The notes beneath the pieces are model-generated. The model searched no databases. It was given only the letters and a program-made list of their open reading frames with translations, and was not told where the DNA came from. From Candidatus Thiobius zoothamnicola (GTDB lineage Bacteria; Pseudomonadota; Gammaproteobacteria; Chromatiales; Chromatiaceae), in NCBI GenBank assembly GCA_030826945.1, contig JAPQLC010000005.1, forward strand, positions 62,001 through 126,000: 64,000 bases of DNA. The letters run 5' to 3'. Positions 10,383-26,382 of this stretch are shown one piece after another (position 1 is the stretch's first letter; each line of letters opens with the position of its first letter). The position numbers were made by a program, and so were the translations under genes.

Positions 10383-11450
10383 TTGGTTTTTCTCAGATTG
10401 AATTACGATTTCATCATTATCGGTCAAGGCCTGGCAGGGAGTTTGCTGGCCTGGCGACTCATTGAGCGCCAGCAAAAGGTATTGGTGATGGATGACCGTC
10501 GTCGTACAGCGTCGTCAATGGTCGCTGCCGGGATGGTGAACCCAATGGCGGGCATGCGTTTTAACTGCCATCCGCGTATGGATGATTGGCTAAATGCCGC
10601 CATGGTGTTTTATCAGTCACTGGAGCGTTTTTCAGGCAAGCGCTATTGGCACCCGTTAAATATGCAAAGATTGTTTCGTTCCAGAGAACAAAGGCGTTTT
10701 TATACGCGCCGGTTGGATGAAAAAATCTGTCAAAGATATTTGGGGCCTGAGTTAGATCAAACGGATGTGCCGAATCTTGTGCAAGCACCTTATGGCGGTT
10801 TTTGGCAATATCAAACTGGCTATGTGGATATACCCTCGCTTTTATTGGATATTGGCCACTGGCTCACACAACGCAAGGCGTTATTAGAACAGGTTTGCGA
10901 TTACCAGCAGATTAAACTATCAGATCGCCATGTCAGCTATGGGGATATACGCGCGAAATTCCTCATATTTTGTGAAGGCTATCGAATGCAGGCTAACCCA
11001 TGGTTCAAAGCATTGCCTTTACAGCCGGATAAAGGCGAAATACTCACCTTGACGAGTAATGAGAACCTTTGTAAAACAATCATTAACAGTGCCCATTGGC
11101 TGGTTCCACTACGCAATGGCGATTATCGTTTTGGCGCAACCCATCAGCATCAGGGCATTGATAATCAGCCAACCCGACAAGGGGAAAAAGATTTACGACA
11201 AGGCTTGGATGCGCTATTGACGTCATCTGAGGGTTTACGCATCAAGTCGCATTTGGCTGGTGTGCGTCCCGCCACCCGTGATCGTCATCCTTTCATCGGC
11301 GTGCATGCCACGCATTGGCGATTAGGTCTTTTCAACGGGTTTGGCGCTCGTGGGGCTTTAACCATCCCCTGGTATAGTCAACGTCTCGTCAATTATTGGC
11401 TTGATAGCGTTGATTTACCGGCGGAAGCCAATATCGAACGTTGTATATGA
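10383..11450 (+). CDS. FAD-dependent oxidoreductase of the DAO type, MnmC(o)-like
   Basis: A 355-residue protein with a TTG start (a second TTG at 10398 is possible; no strong Shine-Dalgarno for either). The Rossmann motif is YDFIIIGQGLAGSLLAWRL. The C-terminal block AGVRPATRDRHPFIG plus LFNGFGARGALTIPW is the pattern also found in the oxidase half of MnmC, which removes the carboxymethyl group from cmnm5s2U34 of tRNA. The gene overlaps an MnmM-type tRNA methyltransferase by four bases (ATGA). Together they could perform the two steps of MnmC. The DAO superfamily is broad, so an unrelated amine oxidase is possible. Confidence 0.7.
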   Translation: MVFLRLNYDFIIIGQGLAGSLLAWRLIERQQKVLVMDDRRRTASSMVAAGMVNPMAGMRFNCHPRMDDWLNAAMVFYQSLERFSGKRYWHPLNMQRLFRSREQRRFYTRRLDEKICQRYLGPELDQTDVPNLVQAPYGGFWQYQTGYVDIPSLLLDIGHWLTQRKALLEQVCDYQQIKLSDRHVSYGDIRAKFLIFCEGYRMQANPWFKALPLQPDKGEILTLTSNENLCKTIINSAHWLVPLRNGDYRFGATHQHQGIDNQPTRQGEKDLRQGLDALLTSSEGLRIKSHLAGVRPATRDRHPFIGVHATHWRLGLFNGFGARGALTIPWYSQRLVNYWLDSVDLPAEANIERCI

Positions 11451-12007
11451 ATCACCAACCACTGACCCAGATCGCCCACAGCAAAATTGCGCGCCAATTA
11501 CATTCTGGTGACTGGGTGATTGACGCAACAGCAGGCAATGGACATGACACCGTATTTCTGGCGGAGAACGTCGGCACTGCAGGGCATGTGTATGCTTTCG
11601 ATATCCAGACTCAGGCGATAAAAGCCACAGCATCCCGTTTATCGGCGGTGCATTTGCAGGAGCGGGTGACTTTATGCCACAACAGCCACGGGGCGATACA
11701 GGCACATACGCCATCAATTTGGCATGGCGCTGTGGCGGTTATTATGTTCAATCTGGGGTATTTACCACATAGTGATAAATCCATGATCACGCGACCTGAT
11801 GCGACCATCCCGGCGCTTGAGCAGAGTCTCTGTTTGCTTAAGCCGGGTGGGATATTATCAATCATAGCCTACCGATCACATGGCGGCGGACTGGATGAAA
11901 GTGAAGCCGTCATTGACTGGATCCAGTCAAAAAGACAGTTTTTCAGCCATGAGTTATACGACTCCAAAGGCCCGGTTTTGCATCTTTGCCATAAAAATTC
12001 AATTTAG
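11447..12007 (+). CDS. mnmM: MnmM/YtqB-type tRNA-wobble methyltransferase
   Basis: A 186-residue class I SAM methyltransferase of the PF06962 group. Motifs include DATAGNGHDTVFLAE (SAM binding), YAFDIQTQAI, IMFNLGYLPHSDKS and LLKPGGILSIIAYRSHGG. B. subtilis YtqB (MnmM) methylates 5-aminomethyl-2-thiouridine at tRNA position 34. The ATG at 11447 overlaps the TGA of the FAD oxidoreductase gene, so both are probably made together. Older annotations call the family 'rRNA methylase' without direct evidence. The match is strong along the full length. Confidence 0.8.
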   Translation: MNHQPLTQIAHSKIARQLHSGDWVIDATAGNGHDTVFLAENVGTAGHVYAFDIQTQAIKATASRLSAVHLQERVTLCHNSHGAIQAHTPSIWHGAVAVIMFNLGYLPHSDKSMITRPDATIPALEQSLCLLKPGGILSIIAYRSHGGGLDESEAVIDWIQSKRQFFSHELYDSKGPVLHLCHKNSI

Positions 12008-14680: not shown

Positions 14681-15994
14681 ATGGAATTCAAGTGGCATGA
14701 ACGTCGAAACCCAGGTAAGAAAGAAATGGAGCCATTTAATGGATCGAAAGATGCAGGAGATGCGCAAAGAGATAGAGCGCGGATAATTCATTCATCCTCT
14801 TTTCGGCGTCTCCAAAACAAAACCCAAATTCTGGGGATTGGAGAGAATGATTTCTATAGGACCCGGCTTACCCATTCTCTTGAGGTTGCTCAAATAGGCT
14901 CTGGAATATGTGAATATCAACGTAATCGTGAAGACTTATCCTCAGAGATACAAAGGTGGATGCCTTCATTATTTCAAATAGAGGCCATTTGCTTAAGTCA
15001 TGATATTGGTCATCCGCCTTTTGGCCATGGTGGGGAAGTGGCGCTAAATTATTTTATGAGAAGTCACGGTGGTTTCGAGGGTAATGGCCAGACGTTAAGA
15101 ATTGTTTCACGGTTGGGGGAATATTCGAAGGATCATGGGTTGGATTTAACTCGTCGCACGATGCTTGGCTTACTCAAGTATCCTGCTATTCATAGATATA
15201 CCAATAATTATAAAATATCTGAGAATTTATCTCAGACTAATATAGATTGGGCTAAACCACCGAAATGTATCCATGATGATGAAATGGATGTCCTAGAATG
15301 GATTATATCCCCTTTCAATGATCTGGATAAAGAAAGATTCAGATCAATAGATAATTCTGGCTCAAAACATTTTAGGACGATTCATAAAAGTTTTGATACA
15401 ACTCTCATGGAATTAGCAGATGATATTGCTTATGGCGTCCATGATTTAGAAGATGCACTCGAACTTCAACTGGTGTCTGAGAAGACATGGCAGGATAATG
15501 TTGTCGATAAATTAGATCCTTATTGTGAGATTAAAGAAAGAATTTACTTCTTAAATGAGAAGTTATTCTCAAAGAAAAATAGAGAGCGAAAATTTGCTGT
15601 CAGTCAACTTGTGAATTACTTCATAAAGAACATTGATATTGATGTGAATAAGAAATTCACTCACCCTTTGCTGAGGTATCAAGCAACGATGAAGGAACCA
15701 GCAGTAAGCACTCTTGAACTGCTCAAGAAATATGTTGCTGAAGAAGTGATTCGTAAGCCAGAAGTGCAAGCATTAGAGTACAAAGGGCAGAAAATTGTGC
15801 TTAGATTATTTGAGGTATTAAGCGAAAATCCAGATAGATTGTTGCCGAAATCAACATATGCTGAATATGAGGGAAGTGGTAACAGAGCGCGGATAATATG
15901 CGATTATATTTCAGGAATGACAGATGCTTACGCAACAAAGCTTTACCATAAACTTTTTAGCCCATCTATGGGTTCAATTTTTGATCGCTTATGA
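14681..15994 (+). CDS. dgt: dGTPase (deoxyguanosinetriphosphate triphosphohydrolase), Dgt-type HD enzyme
   Basis: A 437-residue HD-domain protein. Metal-binding motifs are visible: His in RTRLTHSLEV, His-Asp in LSHDIGHPPFGH, and Asp in LADDIAYG. FRRLQNKTQ and the terminal ICDYISGMTDAYA follow the E. coli Dgt pattern; E. coli Dgt is about 505 residues. It cleaves dGTP to deoxyguanosine and triphosphate. Such enzymes can defend against phage by draining dNTPs. Codon use and base composition are clearly more AT-rich than the flanking lpxA and cyclophilin genes, and it stands alone between them, which suggests recent transfer. Confidence 0.9.
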   Translation: MEFKWHERRNPGKKEMEPFNGSKDAGDAQRDRARIIHSSSFRRLQNKTQILGIGENDFYRTRLTHSLEVAQIGSGICEYQRNREDLSSEIQRWMPSLFQIEAICLSHDIGHPPFGHGGEVALNYFMRSHGGFEGNGQTLRIVSRLGEYSKDHGLDLTRRTMLGLLKYPAIHRYTNNYKISENLSQTNIDWAKPPKCIHDDEMDVLEWIISPFNDLDKERFRSIDNSGSKHFRTIHKSFDTTLMELADDIAYGVHDLEDALELQLVSEKTWQDNVVDKLDPYCEIKERIYFLNEKLFSKKNRERKFAVSQLVNYFIKNIDIDVNKKFTHPLLRYQATMKEPAVSTLELLKKYVAEEVIRKPEVQALEYKGQKIVLRLFEVLSENPDRLLPKSTYAEYEGSGNRARIICDYISGMTDAYATKLYHKLFSPSMGSIFDRL

Positions 15995-16094: not shown

Positions 16095-16592
16095 TTATTC
16101 GGCGTCTTTAACCATAGTTGCTGACTCAACCACAATGGGTTCTACCGGTACATCAGCATGTCCTGACTGATGGCTGGTTTCGACGGTTTTCATGGTGTTC
16201 ACAATATTCATGCCTTCAATGACTTTGCCGAATACGCAATACCCCCAACCATCCTGGCCCGGATAATCTAGAAAATCATTGTTTTTCACGTTAATAAAAA
16301 ATTGGGCTGAAGCGGAATGCGGTTCGGGGGTGCGGGCCATGGCGATGCTACCAGTTTCATTTTTCAAGCCGTTATTCGCTTCATTCTTGATGGGGTCTCG
16401 CGTCGGTTTTTGCGTCATGTCCGCCATAAATCCGCCGCCTTGGATCATGAAATTATTAATCACACGATGGAAAATGGTGTTGTCATAATGGCCGTCACGG
16501 ACATATTGCTCAAAATTAGCGCAGGTTTCAGGCGCGGCCTGATAATTTAATTCGATGACGATATCGCCCATGTTGGTTTTAAACGTGATCAT
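16095..16592 (-). CDS. ppiB: Cytoplasmic cyclophilin-type peptidyl-prolyl isomerase
   Basis: A 165-residue cyclophilin without a signal peptide. Active-site segments are FHRVINNFMIQGGGF, NGLKNETGSIAMAR and SAQFFINV, and GWGYCVFGKV closes the barrel. It accelerates cis-trans isomerisation at proline bonds. Its start overlaps the stop of the upstream exported cyclophilin by four bases (ATGA), so the pair is one transcript giving a periplasmic and a cytoplasmic form. Confidence 0.95.
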   Translation of the reverse strand: MITFKTNMGDIVIELNYQAAPETCANFEQYVRDGHYDNTIFHRVINNFMIQGGGFMADMTQKPTRDPIKNEANNGLKNETGSIAMARTPEPHSASAQFFINVKNNDFLDYPGQDGWGYCVFGKVIEGMNIVNTMKTVETSHQSGHADVPVEPIVVESATMVKDAE

Positions 16593-17161
16593 TGCGTTTC
16601 CTGTGTGGTTAAACGTTTAATGGATTGAATCAGGATAGGAGGCGTCGGCACATCGGCGCGTCCAGCCCGGAAATGCGTTTTACTGGCGGCGATTTTATCG
16701 ACAACGTCCATACCCTGAGTGACTTTGCCAAACACGGCATAGCCCCAGCCATCAAAGCTTGGGTAATCCAGATTCGGGTTGTTCCGGTGATTGATAAAGA
16801 ATTGCGCCGTGGCGGAATGCGGACGGTTAGTGCGCGCCATGGCGATGCTGCCGCGCGCATTTTTCAACCCATTGGCGGCTTCATTTTCAACCGGATCATG
16901 CGTGTTTTTCTTTTTCAAATCTGGCGTCAGGCCGCCGCCTTGAATCATGAAATTTTTAATCACGCGATGGAAAACTGTGCCATTGTAAAAACCCTCATCC
17001 ACGTAGCGGAGGAAATTGGCGACTGTTTTCGGCGCTTTTTCCTGATTCAACACCAAGGTGATATCGCCTTGATTCGTACTGATGAGAACAGCGGGTTGAG
17101 AGGCCAGGGCCGCACCCGTGAGGCAGACCGCCAATAAAGCGATGTAAAAGAATTGCCGCAT
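16589..17161 (-). CDS. ppiA: Exported cyclophilin-type peptidyl-prolyl isomerase
   Basis: A 190-residue cyclophilin with an N-terminal signal peptide (MRQFFYIALLAVCLTGAALA, cleavage near residue 20). It carries FHRVIKNFMIQGGGL, ARGSIAMARTN and TAQFFINH. It should assist folding of periplasmic proteins. It is followed by ppiB with an ATGA overlap and diverges from cysS across 90 bases. Confidence 0.94.
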   Translation of the reverse strand: MRQFFYIALLAVCLTGAALASQPAVLISTNQGDITLVLNQEKAPKTVANFLRYVDEGFYNGTVFHRVIKNFMIQGGGLTPDLKKKNTHDPVENEAANGLKNARGSIAMARTNRPHSATAQFFINHRNNPNLDYPSFDGWGYAVFGKVTQGMDVVDKIAASKTHFRAGRADVPTPPILIQSIKRLTTQETQ

Positions 17162-23715: not shown

Positions 23716-24161
23716 AAGCACGTCAACAACGTTTGATGCTGATACTGATCGCTTTAGCGGCGCTTGGCTTGGCGACTTATCTGGTGCTGAATGCCTTGGG
23801 TGGCAACTTATCTTATTTCTTTTCTCCGACTGAAGTGATTGAAGGCAAGGCACCGACTGACCGCATCTTCCGGCTGGGCGGCATGGTGCAAGCGGACAGT
23901 GTGGCACGCGCTGAAGGGGATCTGACAGTTACCTTTACCGTGACCGATCACCATAAAAGCATTCCAGTCGCTTACACCGGTATTTTGCCGGATTTATTTG
24001 CTGAAGGTCAGGGCATGATCGCGCAAGGCAAAATGAATGCGGATGGCGTCTTTATCGCGGATGAAGTATTGGCCAAGCATGATGAAAACTATATGCCGCC
24101 TGAAGTGGCCGCCGCTATGGACGCGGGGCAGAAAGCAAAATTGCAATCGACCACCAATTGA
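23712..24161 (+). CDS. ccmE: Haem chaperone CcmE
   Basis: A 149-residue protein with an N-terminal membrane anchor (RLMLILIALAALGLATYLVL) and an OB-fold periplasmic domain. The haem-binding segment VLAKHDENYMPPEV contains the covalent-binding His and the downstream Tyr. It carries haem from CcmC to CcmF. Start at 23712 is fixed by the ATGA overlap with ccmD. The operon is interrupted after this gene: ccmF begins 2.4 kb later. Confidence 0.96.
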   Translation: MKARQQRLMLILIALAALGLATYLVLNALGGNLSYFFSPTEVIEGKAPTDRIFRLGGMVQADSVARAEGDLTVTFTVTDHHKSIPVAYTGILPDLFAEGQGMIAQGKMNADGVFIADEVLAKHDENYMPPEVAAAMDAGQKAKLQSTTN

Positions 24162-24200
24162 ACATGAATCAATTTGCATAAGCGAAGAGATCAATTAGAT

Positions 24201-25598
24201 ATGCATGAAATCATCTGCCCACATTGCACAAAAGCCTTCAAAATTGATGAGGCCGGATATGCAGACATCCTCAAGCAGGTTCGCGATGATGAATTTGAAC
24301 GGCAGTTGCACGAAAGGCTTGAACTGGCCGAGAAAGACAAGCGGAATGCGGTTGAACTCGCCAAAAATGCAGTCGGCAGCGAAATGCACAAAGCAGTGGC
24401 AGCCAAAGATATTGAAATCCAAACATTAAAAGCAAAACTGGAAAATGGTGACGCGGAACGGGAACTTGCTGTCACCCAAGCACTCGGCCAGATTGAGAAG
24501 GAGCGTGATGCGCTCGCCAATCAACTGAAGCAAGTAAAGCAGGATCAACAAACGGCTTCCAAACTCGCCGAGGCAAATCTTGCTAAGGAACTGCAAAAAA
24601 CAGCGGCAGCCAAAGATACGGAAATTCAAGCGCTACAGGCCAAATTGGATAAGGTTGATGTTGCACAAAAGCTCGCTATCACCGAAGCGGTTGGTGTGAT
24701 CGAAAAAGAGCGGGATGCATTAAAGAACGGTCTCAAGCAAGCCGAGTTGGAAAAACAGATTGCCGAAAAATCCCTCAAGGATAAGTACGAGACTCAAATC
24801 AAGGATCGTGATGATGCAATTGAACGCTTGCGGGATATGAAGGCGCGCCTGTCCACCAAAATGGTTGGCGAAACCCTTGAACAGCATTGCGAGACAGAAT
24901 TCAATCGTATTCGGGCGACCGCTTTTCCCAAAGCCTATTTTGAGAAAGACAATGATGTCCGTACCGGCAGTAAGGGTGACTATATTTTCCGTGATCAGAA
25001 TGAAGATGGTACGGAAATCGTTTCAATCATGTTTGAAATGAAAAGTGAAAACGACGCCACCGCCACGAAGAAAAAAAATGAGGATTTTCTCAAGGAACTG
25101 GATAAGGATCGCACGGAGAAGCAGTGTGAATACGCCGTGCTCGTATCCTTACTTGAGGCTGATAGCGAACTCTACAATACCGGGATTGTTGATGTATTTC
25201 ATCGCTATCCAAAGATGTATGTGATTCGGCCACAATTCTTCCTGCCCATGATCACGCTGTTGCGCAATGCTGCGATGAAATCGCTGGAATACAAAACCGA
25301 GCTTGCACTCGTTAAAGCACAGAACGTTGATATCACGAACTTCGAGGATAAACTCGAAACCTTCAAAACCGCTTTTGCAAAGAATTATGATCTTGCCTCC
25401 AGGCGTTTTCAAAAGGCGATTGATGAGATTGATAAGTCCATCGATCATTTACAGAAGACGAAAGACGCCTTGCTCGGAACAGATCGGAATTTGCGACTGG
25501 CGAACGACAAGGCACAAGATGTGACACTCAAGAAACTGACTTGGCGTAATCCGACGATGGCAGCGAAATTCAAGGAGATTGGCGATCAAGAGAAATGA
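24201..25598 (+). CDS. DUF2130 protein with coiled coil and PD-(D/E)XK-like domain
   Basis: A 465-residue protein beginning [15 protein letters not shown] (a short zinc-ribbon-like start). A long charged coiled coil covers residues ~30-230, and the DUF2130 domain follows. In that domain GSKGDYIF and FEMKSEND fit a D...ExK nuclease core, so nucleic-acid cleavage is plausible but unproven. Two coiled-coil segments 69 residues apart are near copies (AAKDxEIQxLxAKL ... [10 protein letters not shown]). The gene splits ccmE from ccmF and sits beside a toxin remnant, which suggests a transferred element. Its cellular role is unknown; relatives often lie near restriction or other conflict genes. Confidence 0.8.
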
Positions 25599-25605
25599 TT
25601 AGCGT

Positions 25606-25803
25606 TCAAAATGAGTCGTAATGACCACCAATGGCAAAAATATAGATGCAATCGTCATCATACTTGTATACAACGCGGTCTTTTTGACGGATTCGTCGGG
25701 ACCATAAGCCGGAGAGATGGTCAGATGGATGCATTGTCATAGATGAGTCAAAGATCATTGAAATATACCGTGCTATAACGCCTAAGAATGGACACAATGT
25801 CAC
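25606..25803 (-). pseudogene. Truncated Txe/YoeB-family toxin remnant
   Basis: The C-terminal half is clear: HLSGLWSRRIRQKDRVVYKY and IYIFAIGGHYDSF match the end of YoeB-type mRNA interferases, including the terminal His-Tyr. The N-terminal part of the fold is absent; the residues before HLSG (VIARYISMIFDSS) do not match the family well, and no YefM-like antitoxin lies next to it. It is on the opposite strand to the ccm genes. It is most likely a decayed toxin-antitoxin module left by an insertion. Confidence 0.75.
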
Positions 25804-25827
25804 TGTGATGATAACAGGCTAACCAAA

Positions 25828-26382
25828 ATGAATAAGTTGATATTCAGATTCTTGGTTTTACTTATAGGCTGTTCTACGCTAAATGCAACAGAGCTTGTTG
25901 ATATCGAGAAAGACGACTTCCATGTCATATTATCCAGTTTACTGGGGGTAAATAAAGACAGACACTCCTACATTGACAGTAAGAGCAAATCACATGCCAA
26001 TGAATTGATGCTGTTTAAGGAGCTAGAAGAAGTCTATATTCAATATATTGAGCCGCAAGACAATGGTGTATATACCGAGAAGCAATTAAAAATTATCATG
26101 TTATTTTCATTCTATGCCGTCAATAAAAACTCTGGCGCATTCAATGAATACCTCGCGACTGATTTAATGCCTATTTTTCTAGATAATCAATCAACCTTTC
26201 TAGCGCATATGCGCGAACTCCCGTTTCTCATACCCTCAGTTTGCGACAGATTAAGTGCATATTTCGGATTCGAGAACAAAGATCAATCCGGTAAAGAAGT
26301 ATTTATCGAGAAAATAAAACTTCAGATGCATGCCATCCTGACAGATAAGCAAGCCAGAAGTTGCTTGATTGAATTTGAGTAA
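25828..26382 (+). CDS. Uncharacterised exported protein within the ccm interruption
   Basis: A 184-residue protein with a signal peptide (MNKLIFRFLVLLIGCSTLNA; the LIGCS could also be a lipobox). The mature part is mainly helical with two cysteines (SVCDRLS and SCLIEFE). No family recognised. Base composition is AT-rich compared with the ccm genes, consistent with its arrival as part of the insertion between ccmE and ccmF. Confidence 0.6.
   Translation: MNKLIFRFLVLLIGCSTLNATELVDIEKDDFHVILSSLLGVNKDRHSYIDSKSKSHANELMLFKELEEVYIQYIEPQDNGVYTEKQLKIIMLFSFYAVNKNSGAFNEYLATDLMPIFLDNQSTFLAHMRELPFLIPSVCDRLSAYFGFENKDQSGKEVFIEKIKLQMHAILTDKQARSCLIEFE

Follow-up and report, generated by a model that had tools for sequence, protein, structure and literature searches.

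Does a gene for an FAD-dependent oxidase, overlapping a gene for a tRNA methyltransferase, replace together with it the bifunctional enzyme MnmC? The question is raised by a gene pair in the window, the 64,000-nucleotide stretch of DNA that was analysed. The original prediction read the pair as a candidate split MnmC, in which an FAD protein with an MnmC(o)-like C-terminal block is combined with a second half from the unrelated MnmM family.

Organization of the Gene Pair

Both open reading frames (ORFs) lie where they were predicted, and the ATGA overlap between them was confirmed, with the TGA of the FAD ORF at 11448–11450 and the ATG of the MnmM gene at 11447–11449. The start given for the FAD gene, a TTG at 10383, is probably five codons early, since in relatives the gene begins where the window has its TTG at 10398. 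The MnmM gene starts at 11447 and not at TTG 11441, the first of its ORF. Among the best 80 of 451 confirmed relatives of the FAD protein, the −4 overlap recurs in several and others overlap by 8 to 44 bases. In the window, pdxJ lies divergently upstream of the FAD gene and purH lies downstream in the same direction. The features are:

10398..11450, + strand: FAD oxidase gene (DAO family), 350 amino acids from the TTG at 10398; a proposed cmnm5(s2)U34-tRNA oxidase
11447..12007, + strand: predicted MnmM gene, tRNA 5-aminomethyl(-2-thio)uridine methyltransferase (NF053511, PDB matches, kept residues)
11447..11450, + strand: ATGA stop/start overlap of the FAD and MnmM genes, read directly
10413..10442, + strand: codons of the GxGxxG FAD-binding segment IIIGQGLAGS (residues 6–15; alignment A2)
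11265..11267, + strand: Arg290 codon of the FAD protein, aligned with MnmC Arg567 and B. subtilis glycine oxidase Arg302
11337..11354, + strand: codons of the GFGARG motif (residues 314–319), counterpart of MnmC(o) ALGSRG and unlike ThiO GxYRNG

Elsewhere in the window, a gene for an HD/HD_assoc phosphohydrolase (dGTPase-like; 14681–15994) lies in a stretch of lower GC content (0.413) between lpxA and a pair of cyclophilin genes, and looks like an insertion. The two cyclophilin-type prolyl isomerase genes stand in tandem (16095–17161), apparently as a duplication. Positions 24001–26000 have an AT skew of +0.21, with −0.12 and −0.17 in the flanks.

Family Assignment of the Two Proteins

The product of the second gene scores 182.7 bits against the equivalog model NF053511 (cut-off 135), which bears out the original call of an MnmM-family methyltransferase, and its best PDB matches are to the YtqB/MnmM family. 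According to excerpts of Cho et al. (2023; PMC9976899), MnmM activity is established for the B. subtilis and S. aureus homologs, and the B. subtilis enzyme needs D34, N101, Y104, K110, Y141, and H144, and also K11. Six of these seven residues are kept here (D34, N102, Y105, K111, Y142, and H145), the position of K11 being occupied by His; D34, N102, Y105, Y142, and H145 are identical in 137/137 aligned rows, in which some genes are repeated. On its sequence, the second gene is a predicted MnmM that would methylate nm5(s2)U34.

The general DAO model (PF01266, E = 4e-27) is the only one whose threshold the FAD protein clears. Its best specific models are ThiO (TIGR02352; 94.5 bits, cut-off 250.8) and then MnmC1/MnmC(o) (TIGR03197; 79.6 bits, under half of the cut-off of 174.2), with the ThiO score slightly higher and neither cut-off reached. 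Both motifs quoted in the original prediction, GVRPATRDRHPFIG and GFGARGAL, are present. In the 60-row family alignment (A2), G9 and G11, which align with G271 and G273 of E. coli MnmC, are invariant and G14 is nearly so. The position of Arg290 holds Arg in every row of all five groups compared; its counterpart in glycine oxidase, Arg302, is one that we take to bind the substrate carboxylate. A loose GxG[AS][RK]G motif is found in 30/30 FAD-family rows, 13/16 rows of the Bacteroidota-type FAD proteins, and 28/29 MnmC1 rows, and in 0/5 ThiO rows. In place of a tyrosine found throughout MnmC1 and ThiO (MnmC Tyr504, glycine oxidase Tyr246), 29/30 FAD-family rows have Trp. Residues G9, G11, G246, R290, G301, G319, and R348 match the conserved MnmC positions Gly271, Gly273, Gly518, Arg567, Gly578, Gly619, and Arg653, Gly287 lying outside the mapping; excerpts of the 2013 structure paper (PMC3648344) give these FAD-side residues as >98% conserved among 140 MnmC proteins. 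The kept positions are mostly general to DAO enzymes and are therefore weakly discriminating.

An AlphaFold2 model of the FAD protein (mean pLDDT 96.6) has glycine oxidase as its closest fold (Z 37.7) and MnmC as the next (Z 34.7); behind these come further enzymes that oxidize or dehydrogenate N-substituted glycines and amino acids. The pI of the protein is 9.4, and the group medians are 8.8 for the FAD family, 5.8 for ThiO, and 7.4 for MnmC1; a basic pI is expected for a tRNA enzyme, but is no proof of one.

The host assembly (2.38 Mb in 46 contigs) is rated 100% complete. A search of it for a canonical mnmC, whose presence would have counted against the original prediction, found none: MnmC2/MnmD (NF033855) gave no match and MnmC1 (TIGR03197) nothing over its cut-off. 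The locus shows no fusion of MnmC2 and MnmC1 domains; it has two separate genes, in a genome without MnmC2. The best match to TIGR01212, which we take to be the radical-SAM MnmL family, reached 40.3 bits against a cut-off of 180. A ThiO over its cut-off lies elsewhere in the host genome (TIGR02352; 260.1 versus 250.8 bits) and leaves no need for the FAD protein in that role. Given this separate gene and the FAD protein's own score below the cut-off, its assignment as ThiO was rejected.

Phylogenetic Position of the FAD Protein

We placed the FAD protein in a careful tree of 39 rows with thinned groups, from which SolA, L275, and L269 were left out because of their long branches in a quick tree of 90 rows. 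Only ThiO and DadA served as outgroup, and the root is assumed. The FAD clade is recovered at 100/100. It is adjoined by a clade (99/96) of stand-alone DAO proteins from Bacteroidota that score just under the MnmC1 cut-off. One branch unites these two clades and MnmC1 (100/99), and ThiO and DadA lie on the opposite side. The MnmC1 clade is itself closed at 100/99, and the FAD protein lies outside it. The 90-row tree recovers the same main groups and leaves their deep order open.

A grouping of the FAD protein with unrelated amine oxidases, the other result that would have told against the original prediction, was not recovered in this tree: the protein sits on the MnmC(o) side, away from ThiO and DadA. 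The tree likewise rejects a detached MnmC(o) domain, and the label "split MnmC" was too strong: the FAD protein belongs to a separate sister lineage, so that neither half of the pair is orthologous to MnmC.

The adjoining Bacteroidota clade (L263–L268) contains candidates for further MnmC(o)-like oxidases; the two members scanned, L263 and L266, come close to the MnmC1 cut-off (171 and 162 bits, cut-off 174).

Conservation of the Pair across Genomes

Among the best 80 of 451 confirmed relatives of the FAD protein, whose loci come from Methylococcales, Chromatiales, Mariprofundus, Nitrosomonas, Bacteroidota, and Opitutales, MnmM is adjacent to the FAD gene in 57 (gap <100 bp, mostly overlapping, as a rule by 4 to 26 bases), further off in 4, and outside the locus in 19, some of these loci being incomplete. 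It lies within 6 kb in 61/80, the next commonest neighbor family in 16/80, and each of seven window neighbors tested in no more than 2/80. MnmM is the sole recurrent neighbor of the FAD gene in this set. General synteny was rejected as the cause of the adjacency, since neighbors other than MnmM are not kept. Taken with the PF01266 and NF053511 scores, adjacency in 57 of these best 80 loci argues that the overlap of the two genes is not due to chance.

The distribution across genomes is the main evidence for the pairing. In an order sample of 147 genomes, the FAD family occurs in 27 and MnmM over its cut-off in 31, and all 27 fall within the 31; MnmC2/MnmD was found in 0/147. The FAD gene is directly 5′ of MnmM at 19 of 30 MnmM loci examined in this sample, the window's own included, and eight of the other eleven belong to genus g10, in which all 8 FAD genomes carry both genes at distant, unlinked places (90 kb apart in G020, for example). 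MnmM without the FAD family was found in G066, G118, G010, and G076.

The remaining 116 genomes of the order sample have neither the FAD family nor MnmM over its cut-off nor MnmC2 at the thresholds used; cmnm5(s2)U is presumably the end product in them.

A class sample of 369 gammaproteobacterial genomes contains the FAD family in 28, MnmM in 31 at E ≤ 1e-20 (29 over cut-off), and MnmC1 in 85 at E ≤ 1e-35 (80 over cut-off). MnmM is present in 26 of the 28 FAD genomes, the exceptions being G212 and G531, and MnmC1 over its cut-off in 0/28. Counted by genome, with kinship ignored, Fisher tests give 1e-32 for the association of FAD with MnmM and 0.0013 for the avoidance of MnmC1; counted by family, MnmM occurs in 16/18 FAD families, the total number of families being assumed as 150 or 180. 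An apparent genome with both FAD and MnmC1, G464, was rejected, its 131-bit sub-cut-off match being a ThiO (275.6 bits).

Of the two exceptions, G531 carries MnmD at 213 bits, the only case among the 25 additional FAD genomes of this class in which MnmD was sought. The complete genome of G212 (locus L271) has the FAD protein and neither MnmM nor MnmD; there the neighbors are RdgC and a GGDEF regulator, and no methyltransferase was found in the four ORFs scanned. Conversely, MnmM occurs without the FAD family in G332, G442, G537, G446 (a fragment), and G498 of the class sample, and no oxidase was found in the five ORFs scanned near MnmM in G066, G010, and G498.

The mnmM and mnmC genes are mutually exclusive in the account given in excerpts of Cho et al. 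(2023; PMC9976899). Most genomes here fit that rule, the exception being genus g202 (G332, G442, and G537; loci L257, L258, and L259), which lacks MnmC2 and combines an MnmC1 placed in the canonical clade with an MnmM encoded elsewhere. This is a third oxidase/methyltransferase combination.

MnmD as Partner in Bacteroidota

Of 128 Bacteroidota genomes sampled, 56 reach 1e-30 against the FAD model, and 34 of these exceed 200 bits. The MnmD survey covered 27 of these 34 (26 and G175) and 25 of the 72 genomes with no match, leaving out the 22 weaker matches; it also took in the genomes of 32 of the best 80 loci among the 451 relatives. MnmD over its cut-off was found in 18 of the 27 strong-FAD genomes and MnmD in 2 of the 25 FAD-negative ones, one of these below cut-off (Fisher 1.3e-5, kinship ignored). 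Two of the nine FAD genomes without MnmD, G602 and G644, have MnmM beside the FAD gene, as do G648 and G586 from outside the MnmD survey; the other 7 of the 27 have neither MnmD nor an adjacent MnmM, only adjacency having been examined for MnmM. This pattern argues that the FAD family pairs with one or the other of two methyltransferases that serve the same step but are unrelated.

Proposed Function and Alternatives

The simplest account of these data is that the FAD protein would be a stand-alone cmnm5(s2)U34 oxidase feeding MnmM. According to excerpts of the 2013 structure paper (PMC3648344), MnmC(o) oxidizes the Cα–N bond, and hydrolysis follows. In a corresponding scheme, MnmEG would place a carboxymethylaminomethyl group on the wobble U34; the FAD protein, acting like glycine oxidase, would oxidize the Cα–N bond of this N-substituted glycine; hydrolysis would release glyoxylate and leave 5-aminomethyl-(2-thio)uridine; and MnmM would use SAM to methylate the amine, giving mnm5(s2)U34. 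That the pair replaces MnmC, as originally proposed, is supported by the co-occurrence of the FAD family with MnmM or MnmD and by its avoidance of MnmC, from which we infer the function. The lack of a competing over-cut-off enzyme in the host genome, the position in the tree, the GxG[AS][RK]G motif, the match of Arg290 to MnmC Arg567, and the basic pI also count in its favor. We put at about 0.8 the probability that the FAD protein and MnmM form a two-gene replacement for bifunctional MnmC, with the substrate, product, and step order suggested above. Against this reading stand the ThiO-leaning scores, the slightly closer glycine oxidase fold, the Tyr-to-Trp exchange, the His in place of MnmM K11, genome G212, the seven Bacteroidota FAD genomes with neither MnmD nor an adjacent MnmM, and the open deep order of the 90-row quick tree.

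With a fold and scores no farther from glycine oxidase than from MnmC, the FAD protein might instead act on a small molecule, as a second oxidase of the glycine or sarcosine type, its adjacency to MnmM being an accident of operon structure. We consider this improbable: an over-cut-off ThiO is already encoded elsewhere in the genome, co-occurrence with MnmM persists where the two genes are unlinked, neighbors other than MnmM are not kept, and in Bacteroidota the association extends to MnmD, a methyltransferase that serves the same step but is unrelated to MnmM. A role within tRNA modification at a different point is also unlikely, if a shade less so. The FAD protein would then act on another step or branch of xnm5U34 synthesis, for instance on a different N-substituted aminomethyl group, and MnmM would use nm5U made by MnmEG with ammonium. 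According to excerpts of Cho et al. (PMC9976899), E. coli ΔmnmC regains mnm5s2U when given only ytqB of B. subtilis, so that MnmM can work without an oxidase, and MnmM genomes without the FAD protein do exist (G066, G118, G010, G076, and G498). However, the known FAD-amine-oxidase step of the pathway is the conversion of cmnm5 to nm5 by MnmC(o), and the FAD family occurs in genomes without MnmC(o) over its cut-off.

We give very little credence to the least probable explanation, a genuine split of MnmC in which the FAD protein would be an MnmC(o) domain that exchanged MnmC2 for MnmM. Genus g202, with canonical MnmC1, MnmM, and no MnmC2, seems to be a similar case, but the FAD protein forms part of its own clade (100/100) outside that of MnmC1 (100/99) and falls short of half the MnmC1 cut-off.

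Comparison with Known Systems

The FAD protein shares with the MnmC(o) part of E. coli MnmC (YfcK) the DAO fold (Z 34.7), a GxGSRG-like motif, the positions of Gly518, Arg567, Gly578, Gly619, and Arg653, and, on the proposed reading, the pathway niche. It differs in being a stand-alone protein of 350 amino acids in a separate clade, below TIGR03197, with Trp in place of Tyr504. ThiO glycine oxidase offers the closest solved fold (Z 37.7), the Arg302 counterpart of Arg290, and a chemistry on N-substituted glycines like that proposed here, but the FAD protein falls below the ThiO cut-off, lacks the GxYRNG motif, and comes from a genome that has another ThiO.

The second gene resembles MnmM (YtqB) of B. 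subtilis and S. aureus in exceeding the curated cut-off and in its active-site residues, and differs from it in being partnered with an FAD oxidase. In Gram-positive bacteria, the partner of MnmM is reportedly the radical-SAM protein MnmL, said to have been described by Jaroch et al. in 2024. A table in a review lists "MnmC/MnmL." Our literature search, which did not reach the work of Jaroch et al., returned no description of an FAD oxidase paired with MnmM. MnmD, or stand-alone MnmC2 of the Aquifex DUF752 type, partners the FAD family in Bacteroidota, but was not found in the host genome or in any of the 147 genomes of the order sample.

Excerpts of Cho et al. (2023; PMC9976899) state that it is unknown which MnmC(o)-like enzyme serves organisms with MnmM, and such an enzyme is expected there for organisms with an orphan MnmC(m), Bacteroides included. 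The FAD family, an unassigned one with members in Gamma-, Zeta-, and Betaproteobacteria, Bacteroidota, and Verrucomicrobiota, is likely to consist of stand-alone tRNA cmnm5U34 oxidases that work with MnmM or MnmD and to supply the missing oxidase of many MnmM and orphan-MnmD organisms, in which case the last two steps to mnm5U would be interchangeable modules. It offers a concrete candidate, easy to express, for another large set of organisms, in the Proteobacteria and Bacteroidota, beside the Gram-positives reportedly served by MnmL.
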